Assembly (NCBI GenBank): GCA_016213675.1
Contig: JACQZW010000007.1
Location: 1-64,000, forward strand
Length of the DNA: 64,000 nucleotides
Direction: 5' to 3'
Source: Acidobacteriota bacterium
GTDB taxonomy: Bacteria; Acidobacteriota; Thermoanaerobaculia; Thermoanaerobaculales; Thermoanaerobaculaceae
The notes beneath the pieces were generated by a model, which saw only the letters and a list, made by a program, of their open reading frames with translations, had not been told where the DNA came from and searched no databases. The translations under genes were made by a program, and so were the position numbers. Shown piece after piece: positions 16,014-27,083 of the stretch (position 1 is its first letter; every line of letters begins with the position of its first letter).

Positions 16014-17356
16014 GGAAGAGCACGTTGGTGGGCCTCGCCGGCCTCGTGGCGGCGCTGGCAGGGGTGTCGTACTGGGGCGCACGTCCGACGCCGCGGACGT
16101 GGAGCACGACGAGCGGCGCGGCGCTGACCGCCTTCGAGCAGGGCAGGCAGGCGGCCGAGAAGTTCTACCATCTCGAGGCCATCGACCACTTTCGAGCGGC
16201 ACTCTCGTTGGACCCCGAGTTCTTCGCCGCTCGAATCATGCTGGCCGAGAGCTTGGCGAGCAGCAGTCAGAATGGGCCGGCCAAGGAAGAGACCGCGCGC
16301 GCCCTGGAAACCGCCGATCCGAACGCACTGACCCCGGGTGAGCGGGGCCTTTGGGAAATCGCTCAGCTCAGGACGCAAGGGAAGTCGGACCTCGTCTACC
16401 CGGCGCTCGAGAGGCTCGCCAAGGACAACCCCGGGGACCCGAGTTTCTCGCGACAGCTCGCTTCTCAGGCGATCATGCGAGGCGAGCTCGACAAGGCTGC
16501 GAAGTGGGCCGAAAAGACCCTGCAGGTGGCGCAGAACGATGCGATGTCCTACAACACCTTGGGCTACATTGAGATGGGGCGAGGCAACTTCGCCGCGTCC
16601 GAGGCCCACTTCAAGAGGTACGTCTTCATCGCCCCCGATCAGGCCAATCCTCACGACTCCCTGGGCGAGCTCTACACCGTCATGGGGCGGTGGGAGGACG
16701 CCGAGAACGAGCTGAGGCGAGCCCTCGAAGTCAACCCGCGGTTCTTTCCTTCCTGGGACCACCTGGCGCGGGTCGCCGCGCTGCGAGGTGACGAGGCGGG
16801 TGCCCTGGAGGCGGCTCGGAGGTCGGGCGAGATCACCGGCGTGGACCAGGAGCAGCTCGACTCACGCATGGCCACGCTGCGCGGCTACACGGCGCTTTCA
16901 CGGGGCGACCGGGACGGGCTGATTGCAATCGCCCGAGAGCTGCCCTCTGACGCCGTTCTCGGGGACACCGGGCTCCTCCGTGCGATCGCCGCGTCGTACC
17001 AGGGAGATCTCGCCGCGCTGCGCCAGTTGGCATCCGCCGCCAGTGCGGCCGCGACCAAGGCCGAGGAGACCGGCAAGAAGGGGCCGAGGCCAGTGCTGGC
17101 CCTGATCAACTCCATGCGCCTCAGGGCGGAGGGGCACGCGCTCGAGGCGGCTCAGGTCGCCGGGAGCGCCGAGGCGGCCCTGAACTTCTCCATCGACCAG
17201 GCGATCCTCAAGCTGCTCCTGCGTTGCCAGGAGGTAGAGGCGCTGGCGGCGGCCGGCGAGAGGACCAAGGCCCAACAAGTGCTGGCAGCAATCGAGGCGG
17301 TCAATCCCTCGTTCCCATGCGTCGAGACGTGCCGTCAGCTCTTGGGTCGGCACTGA
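16010..17356 (+). CDS. TPR-repeat protein with N-terminal membrane anchor
   Basis: A 448-residue protein beginning with an uncleaved-looking hydrophobic segment (residues ~5-20), then tandem tetratricopeptide-like helices across most of its length. Clear A-x-x-x-x-x-A-L-x-x-x-P repeats occur near 45-75, 175-215 and 210-245. Enrichment in Ala, Leu and Glu fits an alpha-solenoid scaffold. It overlaps the phosphatase gene before it (ATGA) and the sigma-54-type regulator after it (TGATG), so the three are likely translated together. It may relay signals between the membrane phosphatase and the regulator. No enzymatic motif is visible. Confidence 0.75.
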   Translation: MRKSTLVGLAGLVAALAGVSYWGARPTPRTWSTTSGAALTAFEQGRQAAEKFYHLEAIDHFRAALSLDPEFFAARIMLAESLASSSQNGPAKEETARALETADPNALTPGERGLWEIAQLRTQGKSDLVYPALERLAKDNPGDPSFSRQLASQAIMRGELDKAAKWAEKTLQVAQNDAMSYNTLGYIEMGRGNFAASEAHFKRYVFIAPDQANPHDSLGELYTVMGRWEDAENELRRALEVNPRFFPSWDHLARVAALRGDEAGALEAARRSGEITGVDQEQLDSRMATLRGYTALSRGDRDGLIAIARELPSDAVLGDTGLLRAIAASYQGDLAALRQLASAASAAATKAEETGKKGPRPVLALINSMRLRAEGHALEAAQVAGSAEAALNFSIDQAILKLLLRCQEVEALAAAGERTKAQQVLAAIEAVNPSFPCVETCRQLLGRH

Positions 17357-18891
17357 TGTCTTCGTTGGGCCGGGACGGATGGCGCCGCGCCAGGCTCGAG
17401 ACCATTCTCGACCTGTCCCTCGCCATCGCCGGTCTGCGCCGGGAGAGCGAGGTTGTCGACGAACTCGTCCAGCGCGCCGTCGGGATGGTGGACGCCCGTG
17501 CGGGTCTCGCGCTGTCGCTCTCGCCGCAGCTCGGTACGGCCACCGTTTCTGCAGTGGGCTGGCCGAGTGATTGGGATGCCGGGGCCAGGCTGCTCGTCGA
17601 CCCCAAGATGCTGCCTGCTCGTGCAGGTGAGGTCGTCCGCGTTTCCGGCGACGAGATCGGACTCCCATTCGCGGAGGTCCTGTTGGCCCCCTGCCTGTGG
17701 CGGGAAGAGCTCCTCGGTCTGGTTGCGGTCGCCGACAAGGAGGCCCGGGCAGGCGTCGGTCGCTTCGATGAAGAAGACGTCACGTTCCTCCGGTCACTGG
17801 CACTCCTCGCGGCGCCGGCAATCGCCTCGTGCAGGGAGTTGGAGGAGGTGCAGCGTCAGAGGCTGGTGCTGGAGGAAGAGAACCGGGCCCTGCGGGTCGA
17901 GTCGGCCGAGGAGGCCGGTCTCGTCGGACAGTCTGCCCCCTTCCGGCGGGTTGTGGAGTTGGTCAGGCGCGTCGCCGCGACGGACGTCACCGTGCTCCTG
18001 CGGGGCGAGTCCGGCACCGGGAAGGAACGCGTCGCCCGACTCCTCCATCGACTCTCGACCCGGACCCGCGGGCCGTTTGTTCCGCTCAATTGCGCGGCCG
18101 TGCCCGAAACGCTGCTCGAAGCGGAGCTCTTCGGCATCGAGCGAGGAGTTGCAACGGGAGTCACGGCCAGGATCGGCAAGTTCGAGCTGGCGGGCGGTGG
18201 GACGCTGTTTCTCGACGAGATCGGCGACCTCTCGCCTGTGCTCCAGGCCAAGCTTCTGCGGGTCGTCCAAGATCGGGAGGTGGAGCGGGTCGGCGGTCGG
18301 CAGCGGGTCCGCGTGGACGTCCGCCTGATCACGGCCACGCACCGGGACCTCGAGGACATGCTCACGAAGGGTGAGTTCCGGCAGGACCTGTACTACCGGC
18401 TGCGGGTGATCGAACTGTCGCTGCCACCCCTGCGTGAACGGCGCGAGGACATTCCCCTTCTCGCGCACCACTTCGTCCGGATGCACGGGCGGAGACTCGG
18501 TCGTGAGGGACTCGTGCTGGCGCGGCCCGCGCTGGAGCTGCTGCTTCGCCACGACTTCCCCGGCAACGTGCGAGAGCTGGAGAACCTCCTCGAGGCCGCC
18601 GTGGCGCTCGCCGCCGGTCCGCGAATCGAGGTCGAGGACCTGCGACTCGCGATGGGCGGCGCCCAGCGCGGTGAAGTCACGCTCGTGGGTTCGCTCGAGG
18701 AGATCATTCGAACGCATGTCGGCCATACGTTGGCCCGCTTCGCAGGAAACCGCGCGGCGGCAGCCCGTGAGCTCGGCATCGACCGCTCCACGCTCTATCG
18801 CATGCTGAGGCGTTCTGCAACGACCGGTGCGGGACGCAACGCAGGAGCGATCGACCCGACGCAGCGGCACAAATCCCGAGGGCAGTCGTGA
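17356..18891 (+). CDS. GAF / sigma-54-type AAA+ / Fis activator with altered GAFTGA
   Basis: Start set at the ATG that overlaps the TPR stop; 511 residues. An N-terminal GAF domain (~10-170) is joined by a coiled coil to an AAA+ domain (~190-415) and a Fis-type helix-turn-helix (~440-485, ending AARELGIDRSTLYRML). Walker A GESGTGKE begins near 217 and the Walker B stretch TLFLDEIGDL is present. The sigma-54 contact loop, normally GAFTGA, reads GVATGV at residues 264-269, so the key Phe is missing. It may therefore act by a modified mechanism or with another sigma factor. No sigma-54 gene is in the window. Confidence 0.87.
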   Translation: MSSLGRDGWRRARLETILDLSLAIAGLRRESEVVDELVQRAVGMVDARAGLALSLSPQLGTATVSAVGWPSDWDAGARLLVDPKMLPARAGEVVRVSGDEIGLPFAEVLLAPCLWREELLGLVAVADKEARAGVGRFDEEDVTFLRSLALLAAPAIASCRELEEVQRQRLVLEEENRALRVESAEEAGLVGQSAPFRRVVELVRRVAATDVTVLLRGESGTGKERVARLLHRLSTRTRGPFVPLNCAAVPETLLEAELFGIERGVATGVTARIGKFELAGGGTLFLDEIGDLSPVLQAKLLRVVQDREVERVGGRQRVRVDVRLITATHRDLEDMLTKGEFRQDLYYRLRVIELSLPPLRERREDIPLLAHHFVRMHGRRLGREGLVLARPALELLLRHDFPGNVRELENLLEAAVALAAGPRIEVEDLRLAMGGAQRGEVTLVGSLEEIIRTHVGHTLARFAGNRAAAARELGIDRSTLYRMLRRSATTGAGRNAGAIDPTQRHKSRGQS

Positions 18892-18906
18892 ACGCAGAGC
18901 GCGAGC

Positions 18907-18921
18907 GTTGCATTTCGCAAC
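18907..18921. repeat. Inverted repeat, possible operator
   Basis: GTTGC-ATTTC-GCAAC, a perfect 5 bp inverted repeat with a 5-base centre in the AT-rich stretch just after the regulator gene. It lies ~30 bases upstream of a promoter-like pair. It may be a binding site for the Fis-type regulator encoded immediately upstream, but this is inference. Confidence 0.35.
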
Positions 18922-18949
18922 ATATTCGATCGATCTGGATTTGCTATTC

Positions 18950-18977
18950 TCGACATAAGGGTATGTTTGTCTATATT
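18950..18977 (+). promoter_or_regulatory. Promoter upstream of RsbW/STAS/phosphatase block
   Basis: TCGACA (18950-18955), a 16-base spacer, then TATATT (18972-18977), in the most AT-rich stretch of this region. Predicted transcription starts near 18984, ~220 bases before the RsbW-like gene. The interval holds only the small ORF described separately. Confidence 0.5.
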
Positions 18978-18987
18978 TTAGGTGGAT

Positions 18988-19179
18988 ATGGCAGGACTCT
19001 TGCTTTGCTCGCGTGCCATGATCCACGCCACGCTGACAAGCCGGCTTCTCGAGCCCCTCACGCACCCCTTGAGCGTGGTGACGGGTGGTGCGCTCGCAGC
19101 CGGACTGCTCCCCGACGATCGGGCGTTGTTTCTTGCCCGGGTGGCTTGGCGGGTACTGCGGCTGCTTCTGTCGCTCTGA
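18988..19179 (+). CDS. Possible 63-residue hydrophobic small protein
   Basis: A short frame from ATG 18988 (in-frame GTG at 18982) to TGA at 19177, in the ~310 bases between the regulator and the RsbW-like gene. The product has two hydrophobic patches (around LSVVTGGALAAGLL and RVLRLLLSL) and a basic centre, as in small membrane peptides. AGGTGG lies just before the ATG, and the promoter start point would fall at the start codon. No homologue is recognised, and a random ORF in high-GC DNA cannot be excluded. If it is not real, this interval is an untranslated leader. Confidence 0.25.
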   Translation: MAGLLLCSRAMIHATLTSRLLEPLTHPLSVVTGGALAAGLLPDDRALFLARVAWRVLRLLLSL

Positions 19180-19203
19180 TCGGCCCAGTACAGGGGCGTG
19201 GTG

Positions 19204-19626
19204 ATGGCTGAGCCCGAGCGCCTGCACTTCGTACTTTCGCGGTTGCCCAACGCCGAACTTGTGGTCGTTTCGGGCGTCGAGCAGCTCGGCGCCGCGCTGG
19301 GTTTTGCTCGTGATACCCTGGACGAGGTCAAGCTTGCAGTGCTCGAGGCGTGCCTCAACGCGCTCGAGCACGGTGGGTCGGAGGTCGAGGTGGAGCTTGT
19401 CGCGCACCAGGGCAGAGAGCCCTGGATGGAAGTTTCCGTCGTCGACCGCGGTCCCGGCTTTGACCCTGGAACCGTGGCGTCGCCGCGCCTCAACGACAAG
19501 CTGCACGCCCAAAGAAAGAGGGGCTGGGGACTGGAGCTGATGCGACGGATGATGGACCGCGTCGAGATCCTCTCGGTTCCCGGTCGTACGCAGGTCCGCA
19601 TGGTAAGGGGTCGCAGAGGGGTGTGA
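19204..19626 (+). CDS. RsbW-like anti-sigma serine kinase (HATPase_c)
   Basis: A 140-residue GHKL-type ATPase. The N-box reads EACLNALEHG, the G1 box DRGPGFDP and the G2 box RGWGLELMRRMMD. This size and motif set match RsbW/SpoIIAB kinases, which bind a sigma factor and phosphorylate a STAS antagonist. Upstream GTG codons at 19198 and 19201 are alternative starts; no strong Shine-Dalgarno separates them. It overlaps the STAS gene by four bases (GTGA), the standard partner-switch arrangement. The target sigma factor is not encoded nearby. Confidence 0.85.
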   Translation: MAEPERLHFVLSRLPNAELVVVSGVEQLGAALGFARDTLDEVKLAVLEACLNALEHGGSEVEVELVAHQGREPWMEVSVVDRGPGFDPGTVASPRLNDKLHAQRKRGWGLELMRRMMDRVEILSVPGRTQVRMVRGRRGV

Positions 19627-19985
19627 CGGTGGATATCTTCGAGCTCAGATTGGCGCTTCAGGACGGCAGCGTGGCGGTCCTCGAGGTCTCCGGGTACATC
19701 AACAACGAGGCGGGGGAGGCCATCGCCACGCAGGCACGTCGGCTGCTGGAGTCCGGGTCGCGGACCCTTCTTTTCGACCTCCACGCCACCCGGATCATCA
19801 ATTCGATAGGAATTTCCCTGCTTCTCGAGGTGCTGGAGGGTGTGCTGGCGGTCGAGGGAACCCTCGCCTTCTGCTCGCTCTCCCCGGGAATCGCGAAGAC
19901 CTTTCAGATCATGGGGTTGGCCCAGTACGCCAAGATCTTCACCGATCGCGAAACCGCTCTGGCGGAACTGTCAGCACGGTCATGA
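19623..19985 (+). CDS. STAS-domain anti-sigma factor antagonist
   Basis: A 120-residue single STAS domain. The segment LFDLHATRIINSIGISLL carries the phosphorylatable serine at the position equivalent to the DSSG motif of SpoIIAA/RsbV. In this family the unphosphorylated form binds the RsbW-like kinase and frees its sigma factor, and a PP2C phosphatase resets the switch. The GTG start overlaps the kinase stop, and its own stop overlaps the ATG of the next phosphatase gene. The three probably form a translationally coupled module. Confidence 0.87.
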   Translation: MTVDIFELRLALQDGSVAVLEVSGYINNEAGEAIATQARRLLESGSRTLLFDLHATRIINSIGISLLLEVLEGVLAVEGTLAFCSLSPGIAKTFQIMGLAQYAKIFTDRETALAELSARS

Positions 19986-21523
19986 CCATCGCGTGGGAAG
20001 TGGTTGAGTCCGCGGAGCGACTCGCCCGCGAGGGCGGGGTGGCTTTGCCCGAGGCGGTTCTCGCGGGTTTGGTCCGGGCTACCGGTGCCACGGGTGCCGT
20101 GCTCGGACGCGGCGGCGACGCGCTCGTCACCCATGGTCTAGCCGGTCCACCCATGCGCCGCGTGGAGCTCCATGCCGGGCGGGACATGTTCTGGCTCGAT
20201 TTGGTTGATGGAGTCGAGCCGGATCGCAACGTTTGCCTGGCGGCACGAGTCGCCCTGTCGTCCTGGCTCATGCGCGAGGAGCTCAAGAAGGCGCGCTTCG
20301 CGGAACGCAGGCGGCTCTGGGAGGTCGAGTCCTTGCGGGCCATCGCCGAGGTGCTTGGTGGCACGCTCGATCCCCGCCATATCGCCGAGGAGTTGGTGGT
20401 TCACGCCACGGCGCTCCTCGACGCCCGACGCGGCGAGGTGTGGCTCTCGCAAGGGACCGGACTCTCGAGTCAGGCGCGCGTCGCCGGGGCTGCCGCGACC
20501 ACGCCATGTGAGGACGGCACCTGCACCATTGCGGCACGGGTCGGAGGCGAGGTCCTGACCGCGCACGAGGCTGCTGCAGTGCCCGATGGGGGTCTTCTCG
20601 AGGAAGGCAGGCTGGCCGTCCCCGTGGTCGGTCGTCGCGGGAGGCTCGGCACCGTCGCCCTGGCCGAGCGGGAGGTTCGGGGAGGCCTCGCGGCGTTCGG
20701 TCCCACCGACACCGAGACGCTGCAGCTCTTTGCCTCACAGGCCGCCGTCGCGCTGGAGAACTCCTCCCTTCACGTGGAGGCGATGGAACGGCAGCTCCTC
20801 GAGCGCGAGCTCGAGCTGGCCGCCTTGGTCCAGAAGGAGCTCTTCCCCTCGGCGTTCGTAGCCCCGCCGGGACTCGAGCTCACGGCTCGCACCGAGCCGT
20901 GCCGCCAGGTCGGCGGAGACGTCTACGACCTCATCACGACGCCGTCCGGCGTAGTCCTGATGGCCGGGGACGTGGCCGGCAAAGGCGTGGCGGCGGCCCT
21001 GTTGGCCAGCTCGCTGCAGGCCGCAGTTCGTCTCCTTGCGCGGCACTGCCCGGATGTCGGCGAGCTGACCCTGCAGGTTCACCAGCATCTCCTCTCCTCG
21101 TCCCCGGAGAACAAGTTCGCGACACTCTTCCTCGCGTGTCTGCGACCGGACGGGACGCTCGAGTACGTCTCCGCAGGGCACAATCCGGCCATCATCGTGG
21201 CGCCGGGGGGGGAGGTCGAGCTCCTGCACTCCTCGGGTCCGCCTGTCGGACTGCTGCAGGCGGTGACCTACCAGACGGAGCGCGTCGAGCTTCCGGCGGG
21301 CGGCCTTCTGCTCGCCTACACGGACGGGTTCTCAGAGGCCTCGAACCCTCAAGGAGAGGAGTTCGGTACCGAGAGACTGGTCGCACTCGCGATCGAGCAT
21401 CGGCACCGACCGTTGGAGACCTTGGTCGAGGCGCTGTTCGGCGCGGTCGACGCCTTCACCGAGGGTGCGCCGGCCCACGACGACCGCACCGCCCTTGCCG
21501 TGCGCCGGCTCTCGTTGTCCTGA
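19982..21523 (+). CDS. GAF-SpoIIE phosphatase (RsbU-like)
   Basis: A 513-residue cytoplasmic protein with no membrane segment. A GAF domain (~110-260, ending in a LFASQAAVALENS signature) is followed by a short coiled coil and a PP2C/SpoIIE domain (~295-510). Metal-binding motifs QVGGDVYDL, AGDVAGKGVAAA, AYTDGFSEA and DDRTALAV are present. It is the third gene of the kinase/antagonist/phosphatase set and most likely dephosphorylates the STAS protein next door. With the membrane phosphatase at 13452 the locus has two inputs to one switch. Confidence 0.88.
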   Translation: MTIAWEVVESAERLAREGGVALPEAVLAGLVRATGATGAVLGRGGDALVTHGLAGPPMRRVELHAGRDMFWLDLVDGVEPDRNVCLAARVALSSWLMREELKKARFAERRRLWEVESLRAIAEVLGGTLDPRHIAEELVVHATALLDARRGEVWLSQGTGLSSQARVAGAAATTPCEDGTCTIAARVGGEVLTAHEAAAVPDGGLLEEGRLAVPVVGRRGRLGTVALAEREVRGGLAAFGPTDTETLQLFASQAAVALENSSLHVEAMERQLLERELELAALVQKELFPSAFVAPPGLELTARTEPCRQVGGDVYDLITTPSGVVLMAGDVAGKGVAAALLASSLQAAVRLLARHCPDVGELTLQVHQHLLSSSPENKFATLFLACLRPDGTLEYVSAGHNPAIIVAPGGEVELLHSSGPPVGLLQAVTYQTERVELPAGGLLLAYTDGFSEASNPQGEEFGTERLVALAIEHRHRPLETLVEALFGAVDAFTEGAPAHDDRTALAVRRLSLS

Positions 21524-24537: not shown

Positions 24538-24563
24538 AGAGGGTCGCCTGCGGGCGACCCTCT
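24538..24563 (+). terminator. Terminator after GDSL lipase
   Basis: Perfect 11 bp stem AGAGGGTCGCC / GGCGACCCTCT with a TGCG loop, followed by a T-rich TGTTGTCC. It separates the lipase from the cytochrome operon. Confidence 0.8.
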
Positions 24564-24625
24564 TGTTGTCCTGACGCATACGTTCTCGTGCAAGTTTCGC
24601 TATTCTCAAGCGGGGAGGATCAACG

Positions 24626-25969
24626 ATGGACTACCCGATCTGGGATCTCGCCATGGGCGGCGGGGTGCTCATCGGCATCGTCGCGATCACTCACGTCTGG
24701 GTGTCGCACTTCGCGGTGGGTGGAGGCATCGCCATTGCCCTGGTGGAGACGCTGGCAGTTCGTCGGGGCGATGCCGCGCTGCGCAACCTGGCCAAACGCT
24801 CCTCGCTGATGCTGATCCTCATCTCCACGGTGTTCGGCGCCATTTCGGGGGTCGGCATCTGGGTGACGATCGGCCTGGTGCATCCGGTCGCCACCTCGGC
24901 GCTCATCCACAACTACGTCTGGGGGTGGGCCGCCGAATGGGCGTTCTTCATCCTCGAGGTCGTGACCGCGCTGCTGTACTTCGCCACCTGGGACAAGGTG
25001 CGGCCGCGGACGCACGTGCTCATCATCTGGCTCTACGCGTTCGCGGCCTACATGTCCCTGGTGATCATCCAGGGGATCATCGCGTTCATGTTGACGCCCG
25101 GGCGGTGGCTGGCGACCCGCTCGTTCTGGGACGGGATCTTCAACCCGACCTACCTCCCCGGGTTGGTCCTGCGAACCGGCATCTGCCTGTTCCTGGCCGG
25201 CGCGTACATGACGTTCGCGGCGTTGCGCGAGCGTGAGCCCGCGGCGCGCGCCCGACTGGTCCGCCTGATGGCGGCACTGCAGGTGGTCGGCGTGCTCCTG
25301 GCGTACGGCGGCTACCGCTGGTGGGAGGCTGCGTTGCCGGACTCGGTGCGGGCGCTGTTCGACAGTGCCAAGCCGATCCTGGCCCAGCTCGCGATCACCC
25401 GTCACCTGGCCCTGTGGCTCCTGGCTGGGTACCTGTTGTTGGGTCTGTTCGCGCTGCTCGTGCCCAAGGCGCAACGCTGGCCGGTGGCGACGCTCGGCCT
25501 TCTGCTCGCGTTCGGCTTCTTCGGCAGCTACGAGCGCCTTCGCGAGGGCGCGCGGAAGCCGTTCGTCATTCGCGACTACATGTTCTCGAACGGGGTCCTG
25601 GTCCACGAGATCGGCGAGGTGAACCGGAAGGGGATCCTCGCCAAGGCCGTGTGGGCGGCACGCGAGAACGACGGCACACCTGAGAGCAAGGGACGTGCGG
25701 TCTTCCGCGCCCAGTGCGCGTCGTGCCACACCCTCGACGGGTACCTCTCGATCCGAGCCCTGGTCGCCCCGGTGGACGCCGACATGATCGGCGGGATCCT
25801 CGCGACCATGCGCGAGGAAGGCGAGGAGTACGCGTCAGGGAAATACATCCACGACGGGCACGTCGCGACCGAGCAGCTCGACTACCCACACATGCCGCCA
25901 TTGGTCGGAACCGACGACGAGGTCGAGGCGCTGTCCGCGTACCTCCTGTCCCTCAAGGCCTCGCACTGA
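24626..25969 (+). CDS. CydA-like membrane protein fused to cytochrome c
   Basis: A 447-residue protein with GGGGAGG seven bases before the ATG. Around nine transmembrane helices are followed by a soluble cytochrome c domain with CASCH (364-368) and a likely axial Met423 in YPHMPP. The N-terminal part resembles CydA of cytochrome bd: H23 lies in the position of the conserved N-terminal His, and E104 and E111 align with the two conserved Glu of the heme b595/d region. I see no long Q-loop, and the helix that carries the b558 His in CydA has none here. It belongs to the bd superfamily rather than a classical quinol oxidase. Partner: the next gene. Confidence 0.78.
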   Translation: MDYPIWDLAMGGGVLIGIVAITHVWVSHFAVGGGIAIALVETLAVRRGDAALRNLAKRSSLMLILISTVFGAISGVGIWVTIGLVHPVATSALIHNYVWGWAAEWAFFILEVVTALLYFATWDKVRPRTHVLIIWLYAFAAYMSLVIIQGIIAFMLTPGRWLATRSFWDGIFNPTYLPGLVLRTGICLFLAGAYMTFAALREREPAARARLVRLMAALQVVGVLLAYGGYRWWEAALPDSVRALFDSAKPILAQLAITRHLALWLLAGYLLLGLFALLVPKAQRWPVATLGLLLAFGFFGSYERLREGARKPFVIRDYMFSNGVLVHEIGEVNRKGILAKAVWAARENDGTPESKGRAVFRAQCASCHTLDGYLSIRALVAPVDADMIGGILATMREEGEEYASGKYIHDGHVATEQLDYPHMPPLVGTDDEVEALSAYLLSLKASH

Positions 25970-25982
25970 ACGGAGGCGTGCC

Positions 25983-27083
25983 ATGCAGACCAACCTCATC
26001 CCCGCGCTCGACCCCGCCCCGCTGCCCGGTCCGCCGTGGCTATTCCACGTGCTCTGGATCGTGACCTTCCTCATCCACCTGCTCTTCGTCAACACCGTGT
26101 TGGGCGGCACGCTCCTCGCGGCGCTCGCCGGGCGCACCCGGGCCGGGGCTCGCGAGTCCCGGCTCTTCCTCGTCGAGGCGAACTCGTGGGCGATCTCGCT
26201 CGCCATCACCTTCGGCATCGCGCCACTGCTCTTCGTCCAAGTCGTCCTCGGGCGCTTCTTCTACACCGCGACGCTCCTGGTCGCCTGGCCCTGGCTGGGC
26301 ATGCTCGGCCTGCTGACCGTCGCCTACTACCTGAACTACGTGGCGAAGTTCCGCCTCAAGGCGGGCAAGGACGCCGGCGCGATCTTGTGGCTGGAGGCCC
26401 TCTGCTTCCTGTCGATCGCCGCGATCCAGGTGACCGTGAACCTCCTCCACATGCAGCCGGCTCGTTGGGAGAGGGTGGCGGACCAGGCATGGGTCGCCCT
26501 CGCCGACCCGACGTTCCTGCCGCGCTACCTGCACTTCGTCCTGGCGGCCGTGGCGGTGGCCGGCGCCCTGCTCGCCTGGGTGGCGGTGCGGCGGGTGGCC
26601 AAGGGCGGCGAGGCCGTGTCGTGTCGGGGGATGGCTTCGTTCGGGCTGAAGGCGGTCATGATCTCGACGCTGCTGCAGCTCGCCGACGGGTTCTGGCTGC
26701 TCTTCGCGCTCCCCGAGGACGTGCTCAAGGGGTTCATGCGCGGCGGCGCCGCGACGATGCTCCCGTTCGTCGTCGGTGTCCTCGCCGGCATCGGGCTGCT
26801 CATGGTCCTCGCGCAGGTCTCAGACCCGCTGACGCAAGCCACCAAGGTGCGGCGCGTCATGGAGCTCATCGTGGGCGCCGTCGTGCTGATGATCGTCACC
26901 CGCCACCAGCTCCGCTTCATCTACCTGGCTCCGGCGCGCGCCTCCGAGCAGGTCGCCGTCGCACCGCAGTGGGACGTGTTTGCGCTCTTCCTGGTGTGCT
27001 TCGTCCTCTGTCTCGCCTTGACCGTGTACGCCGTCGTAAGAGCCGTGAAGGACCAACCACAGGCAGGGGAGCAGGCAGCCTAG
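25983..27083 (+). CDS. Second CydA-like integral membrane subunit
   Basis: A 366-residue, all-helical protein (~9 transmembrane segments) 13 bases after the cytochrome c fusion gene, with GGAGG near the start. Its N-terminal pattern FHVLWIVTFLIHLLFV places H22 and H32 like the first CydA helix. The helix RYLHFVLAAVAVAG carries H184 where CydA has its b558-ligand His, which the partner protein lacks. It shows no CydB signature that I recognise. The pair therefore looks like two CydA-derived subunits with complementary ligand sets. No CxxCH is present. The exact redox reaction is unknown. Confidence 0.65.
   Translation: MQTNLIPALDPAPLPGPPWLFHVLWIVTFLIHLLFVNTVLGGTLLAALAGRTRAGARESRLFLVEANSWAISLAITFGIAPLLFVQVVLGRFFYTATLLVAWPWLGMLGLLTVAYYLNYVAKFRLKAGKDAGAILWLEALCFLSIAAIQVTVNLLHMQPARWERVADQAWVALADPTFLPRYLHFVLAAVAVAGALLAWVAVRRVAKGGEAVSCRGMASFGLKAVMISTLLQLADGFWLLFALPEDVLKGFMRGGAATMLPFVVGVLAGIGLLMVLAQVSDPLTQATKVRRVMELIVGAVVLMIVTRHQLRFIYLAPARASEQVAVAPQWDVFALFLVCFVLCLALTVYAVVRAVKDQPQAGEQAA

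Follow-up and report, generated by a model that had tools for sequence, protein, structure and literature searches.

A linked pair of CydA-like genes with a fused cytochrome c in Acidobacteriota, probably encoding a cytochrome-c-dependent member of the cytochrome bd superfamily

Two adjacent genes on an acidobacterial contig raise the question of what complex is formed when a CydA-like subunit that carries a cytochrome c is encoded beside a second CydA-like subunit, and of where electrons would enter it. The genes, here termed A and B, lie in a 64 000 nucleotide stretch of DNA (the window; contig JACQZW010000007.1, positions 1 to 64 000) from a member of the Thermoanaerobaculaceae. Within the cytochrome bd superfamily, qOR, OR-C and OR-N families are distinguished (PMC13189123). 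In two of the three the quinol site is not conserved, and their members are believed to draw electrons from cytochrome c or a different donor; every cytochrome bd characterised as of 2021 was a quinol oxidase (PMC8509429). A first-pass annotation of the window had proposed a complex of the CydA/CydA-prime type, in which electrons may enter through the cytochrome c rather than from quinol. The proposal was examined here by profile comparison, structure prediction, gene linkage and phylogeny.

Sequence and predicted fold of the two subunits

Both open reading frames were found at the coordinates originally assigned to them, and these are listed with the conserved residues in Table 1. A terminator-like hairpin at the end of the GDSL(-lipase) gene precedes gene A, Shine-Dalgarno-like sequences stand before each of the two genes, the gap between them is 13 nt, and the gene 3' of gene B lies on the opposite strand and points at the pair; A and B therefore probably constitute their own transcription unit. 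No oxygen-defence genes were found next to the pair in the window. Elsewhere in the window, a regulatory cluster (17224-21523) encoding an NtrC-type sigma-54 activator followed by anti-sigma kinase-like, STAS-like (identified by eye) and SpoIIE phosphatase genes was observed, with the FadL-like and GDSL genes downstream of it. The genome also holds two true CydAB pairs and three heme-copper-superfamily proteins at other locations.

Table 1. Features of the A-B locus, in coordinates of the window, with the evidence for each
Feature	Position	Strand	Evidence
Inverted repeat, GC-rich, then T-rich run: GGGTCGCC-TGCG-GGCGACCC-TCTTGTTGT	24541..24569	.	Read from sequence
Gene A, CydA-like, 8 predicted TM helices and C-terminal cytochrome c, 447 aa	24626..25969	+	Pfam, alignment, AlphaFold2, Foldseek
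Gene A His23 (E. coli CydA H19)	24692..24694	+	65/65 homologues
Gene A Glu104 (E. coli CydA E99)	24935..24937	+	65/65 homologues
Gene A Glu111 (E. coli CydA E107, proton path)	24956..24958	+	65/65 homologues
Gene A Glu307 (E. coli CydA E445, heme b595 ligand)	25544..25546	+	65/65 homologues
Gene A Arg310 (R448 of GRQPW motif, here GARKPF)	25553..25555	+	65/65 homologues
Gene A cytochrome c domain, residues 352-444, replacing CydA helix TM9	25679..25957	+	PF00034, E 1.2e-6
Gene A CASCH heme-c binding motif, residues 364-368	25715..25729	+	Cys, Cys, His invariant in homologue alignment
Gene A Met423 (MPPLVG), probable distal heme-c ligand	25892..25894	+	Nearly invariant
Gene B, CydA-like (A-prime type), 9 predicted TM helices, no Glu pair, 366 aa	25983..27083	+	hhalign, AlphaFold2, Foldseek
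Gene B His32 (H19 column)	26076..26078	+	62/63 homologues, one gap
Gene B His184 (H186 column, b558 ligand)	26532..26534	+	62/63 homologues
Gene B Met303 (column of E. coli G440, helix 8)	26889..26891	+	62/63 homologues
Gene B Arg307-His308-x-x-Arg311 (R, E445 position, R448 position)	26901..26915	+	R307 63/63, R311 62/63

Gene A matched the Pfam family for the N-terminal half of CydA (PF01654, E 6e-11, residues 16-221), and was aligned with CydA of E. coli, both true CydA proteins encoded in this genome and 65 non-redundant homologues. The three residues that had been singled out as CydA-like in the first-pass annotation, His23, Glu104 and Glu111, fell in the expected ligand columns and were invariant, and Glu307 and Arg310 can be added to them. 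The earlier remark that the b558 histidine and a long Q-loop are missing was also borne out: leucine occupies the H186 column, the M393 position shows no conservation, and a deletion has removed the Q-loop together with K252 and E257. In E. coli, heme b558 is held by H186 and M393 (PMC6853902). The C-terminal cytochrome c that had been read from the CASCH motif was recognised by PF00034 over residues 355-444, and a CxxCH motif was present in every gene A homologue with its C-terminus available. The AlphaFold2 model of gene A (mean pLDDT 90) comprises eight long helices followed by the cytochrome c domain, the ninth helix of CydA (TM9) being absent, and the top Foldseek matches were CydA chains from known cytochrome bd structures. 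As the E445/GRQPW loop is periplasmic in CydA and the heme-c domain follows it directly, the heme c of gene A should be periplasmic.

When PDB chains were searched directly with the sequences of A and B, no relative of the bd family was found, so a comparison of folds was needed. Gene B had no Pfam match at all, CydB included. Its hhalign probability was 97 against gene A and 86 against quinol-oxidase CydA, as compared with 1.2 against CydB. In Foldseek searches with the gene B model (pLDDT 93, nine helices) ranks 1-10 were all CydA chains, with CydB chains lower down. The histidines formerly noted in the N-terminal region and the b558 helix were each conserved in nearly all homologues, position 308 was mostly H, E or D among the 63 homologues, and counterparts of E99 and E107 were absent from the homologue alignment, as had been supposed. 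Judged by profile, fold ranking and ligand columns, gene B is a CydA relative, derived from CydA and not from CydB. The second gene was examined for a classical CydB by the same three routes and none was found, and the reading of gene B as a diverged CydB was ruled out by profile comparison and fold ranking.

A joint alignment was made with quinol-oxidase CydA and with 13 bd-like proteins of Nitrospirota, a set called OR-N-like on the basis of phylum and of the literature on Nitrospirota (PMC12342949) and holding no named reference. Methionine occupied the Met303 column in 27/28 B proteins and in 13/13 of the Nitrospirota proteins, whereas quinol-oxidase CydA has glycine there and its heme-ligating methionine elsewhere. 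The putative ligand pair of B, His184 with a methionine of helix 8, is unlike the His/Met pair of the quinol oxidases and like that of the Nitrospirota proteins. The shared columns suggest that a low-spin heme is held by this His and Met in both groups and, for the pair studied here, that the low-spin heme has been relocated to the partner B.

Conservation, linkage and phylogeny of the pair

Linkage was assessed in 80 loci from named genomes. A and B were adjacent in 73 of these, across many phyla, the genes mostly overlapping or lying a few bases apart, and the loci without adjacent genes were mostly contig ends; conservation on this scale argues that the pairing is not due to chance. The order was reversed, with B upstream of A, in eight loci from sulfate reducers and their relatives. 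A proteins of the reversed loci have eight heme-c motifs, compared with one in gene A, and two were found in other branches. Proteins of ∼820-890 amino acids with eight CxxCH motifs in C7/MtrC-like domains were observed in L042, L043, L045, L046, L052, L054, L058, L060 and L061, and also in L206, and in the eight of these loci for which both genes were located B was the upstream one; full-length A proteins of this kind occurred in 15 of the 27 genomes of one family.

The distances among A proteins and among B proteins were correlated (r = 0.84; none of 500 shuffles exceeded 0.15), and A and B evolve together. The phylogeny resolved one clade each for A (100/100), B (100/100), qOR CydA (100/100) and the Nitrospirota bd-like proteins (97/90), A and B each falling outside the last. 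When the cable-bacterial group was added the Nitrospirota set was no longer cleanly one clade, and A and B were still recovered as clades.

In the family of the window, A was present in 16 of 17 genomes and CydB in 10 of 17, and A-B accordingly does not depend on cytochrome bd. The seven family genomes with A and without CydB all encode a heme-copper-superfamily protein and a bc-type cytochrome b, the latter being a possible source of reduced cytochrome c in these genomes. One genome of the same order (G020) has A and neither a heme-copper oxidase nor a bc-type cytochrome b, and its electron donor must therefore come from elsewhere.

The neighbours of the pair were inspected in relatives that belong to anaerobic lineages. 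In one locus (L031) the pair lies next to genes for rubrerythrin and flavodiiron protein, in another (L071) next to rubrerythrin, desulfoferrodoxin and a flavodiiron-like protein, and in a third (L081) next to Fur with rubrerythrin-like and flavodiiron-like genes; single neighbours were Fur alone (L028), a ferritin-like gene (L065) and a peroxiredoxin gene (L063), and in L078 the pair adjoins a true CydAB pair. These neighbourhoods are consistent with a role in oxygen removal.

Electron entry and function

Taken together, A and B are probably the subunits of a single membrane complex that acts as a cytochrome-c-dependent oxygen reductase and belongs to the cytochrome bd superfamily, being of the OR-C type as assigned by features and by exclusion from the qOR and OR-N-like groups in a tree that held no named OR-C sequences. 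From sequence, linkage, co-evolution and fold we infer that the complex forms, which hemes occupy it, where its electrons come from and how they travel, and that it reduces oxygen. A would be the catalytic subunit: His23, Glu104 and Glu307, in its first helix bundle and helix 8, would hold the two hemes of the active site, and Glu111 would lie on a proton route from the cytoplasm. The heme c of A would take electrons from a periplasmic cytochrome c and pass them to the active site. B would stand in the place of CydB as the pseudo-symmetric partner of A, with His184 and Met303 as the probable ligands of a low-spin heme b. The complex of CydA and CydA-prime put forward in the first-pass annotation is supported by the profile, fold and ligand columns of B, and both models match CydA chains best.

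With the Q-loop and both b558 ligands gone, the usual quinol oxidation is impossible. Electron entry through cytochrome c, as first suggested for this locus, is supported by this loss together with the position of the heme-c domain, immediately after the periplasmic GRQPW-type loop. If A alone takes the electrons of heme c, the conserved histidines of B have no explained role. It may be, and we advance this tentatively as something rather doubtful, that B is not a mere substitute for CydB but an electron-carrying half: the low-spin heme would have moved from A to B (His184 and the helix-8 Met), a second heme might be bound by His32 where A and B meet, and electrons could pass from one CydA-type subunit to the other on their way to the oxygen site.

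The retention in B of the b558-type histidine column, with a methionine shared by 13/13 of the Nitrospirota bd-like proteins, would also suit a complex that still oxidises quinol, at a new site in B beside the His184/Met303 low-spin heme, heme c then being accessory or an exit branch. We consider this unlikely; neither A, B nor the Nitrospirota proteins have a Q-loop or counterparts of K252 and E257, and no A protein whose C-terminus is present is without a heme-c motif, which is expected if heme c is the point of entry. Some relatives, as described above, adjoin flavodiiron, rubrerythrin, desulfoferrodoxin or Fur genes, encoding proteins that deal with NO, peroxide, superoxide or oxygen, and A-B might on these grounds reduce or sense another ligand such as NO or peroxide, with oxygen reduction not its main task; this is improbable in view of the full oxygen-reducing residue set that is retained, the proton-path Glu111 included. 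That A-B is an ordinary CydAB in which CydB has diverged and to which a cytochrome c has been added is scarcely credible, since the Pfam CydA match of A and the CydB chains lower in the fold search of B are set against the missing quinol site, the missing b558 ligands, the separate clades, the profile probability of B against CydB and the two true CydAB pairs elsewhere in the genome.

The preferred cytochrome-c-dependent oxygen reductase would likely serve to use oxygen with high affinity, or to remove it where oxygen is low. Such an enzyme, if confirmed, would mean that the oxygen-reducing heme arrangement works with another electron input and another energy yield. The relatives beside oxygen-defence genes in anaerobes suggest possible oxygen removal with periplasmic electrons. 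The pair is compact, its partner subunit has a clear ligand pattern and it is nearly universal in the acidobacterial family, which makes it a good target for expression; a specific and testable idea about subunit B has also been gained.

Comparison with known families

The canonical qOR CydAB oxidases of E. coli, Geobacillus and Mycobacterium share with A the fold and the H19/E99/E107/E445/R448 set. Compared with these, A-B has no Q-loop, no H186/M393 pair and no TM9, a heme c is fused, and the partner is CydA-like rather than CydB.

A second comparison is with the CydA homologue (CydAh) of cable bacteria, which like A has a CydA core with a periplasmic cytochrome c domain and no Q-loop (PMC13047784); in cable-bacterial genomes this homologue occurs mostly without CydB (PMC10030654, PMC13047784). 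Eleven Desulfobulbales genomes were sampled as probable cable bacteria (L291-L301), seven with the truncated-haemoglobin/five-heme fusion described for cable bacteria and four others bearing haemoglobin. The homologue was present in all eleven, with cytochrome c fused in 10 of 11 frames. It keeps H19, H186, M393, E445 and R448, has lost E107, has no Q-loop, and forms a clade apart from A. No B gene was found within ∼4 kb on either side of it (less at contig ends) in the 11 genomes. The notion that it is gene A with an overlooked adjacent B was consequently rejected, there being no B nearby, a separate clade and retention of H186/M393. The lone homologue is possibly a one-gene oxidase. In one of these loci (L298:4054-5787) it was observed with two cytochrome c domains and a repeated linker between them (VGDEAKPAAGDAVDDVQKD).

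The CydAA'/bd-like oxidases of the OR-N type, from Nitrospirota and Nitrospinota, resemble A-B in having no standard quinol site and a presumed cytochrome c donor. Unlike A, the 13 Nitrospirota bd-like proteins examined have no fused heme c and form their own clade. Two Nitrospirota loci (L196:1566-4200 and L197) were observed to have two adjacent short bd-like genes, of ∼410 and ∼450 amino acids with MGxxRExAR-motif ends, and these are probably OR-N5 pairs.

Two CydA-type paralogues are also found in CydAA' of the archaeon Caldivirga maquilingensis, reportedly a quinol oxidase with only b hemes; A-B resembles it in this composition, as a complex inferred here, and differs in its acidobacterial relatives and in the absence of a quinol site. 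OR-C is said to have been defined by Murali, Gennis and Hemp in 2021, with a heme-c domain fused to the catalytic subunit. It shares with A-B a CydA-type active site without a quinol site and a presumed cytochrome c donor, and A has the active-site ligand set, lacks the quinol site and carries the fused heme-c domain. No report of a purified member of the A-B branch was found; the branch has already been recognised from genomes, and by its sequence features A-B fits as a further member of the OR-C kind. The name CydAA' belongs to the archaeal quinol oxidase, and the published class that matches A-B is OR-C.
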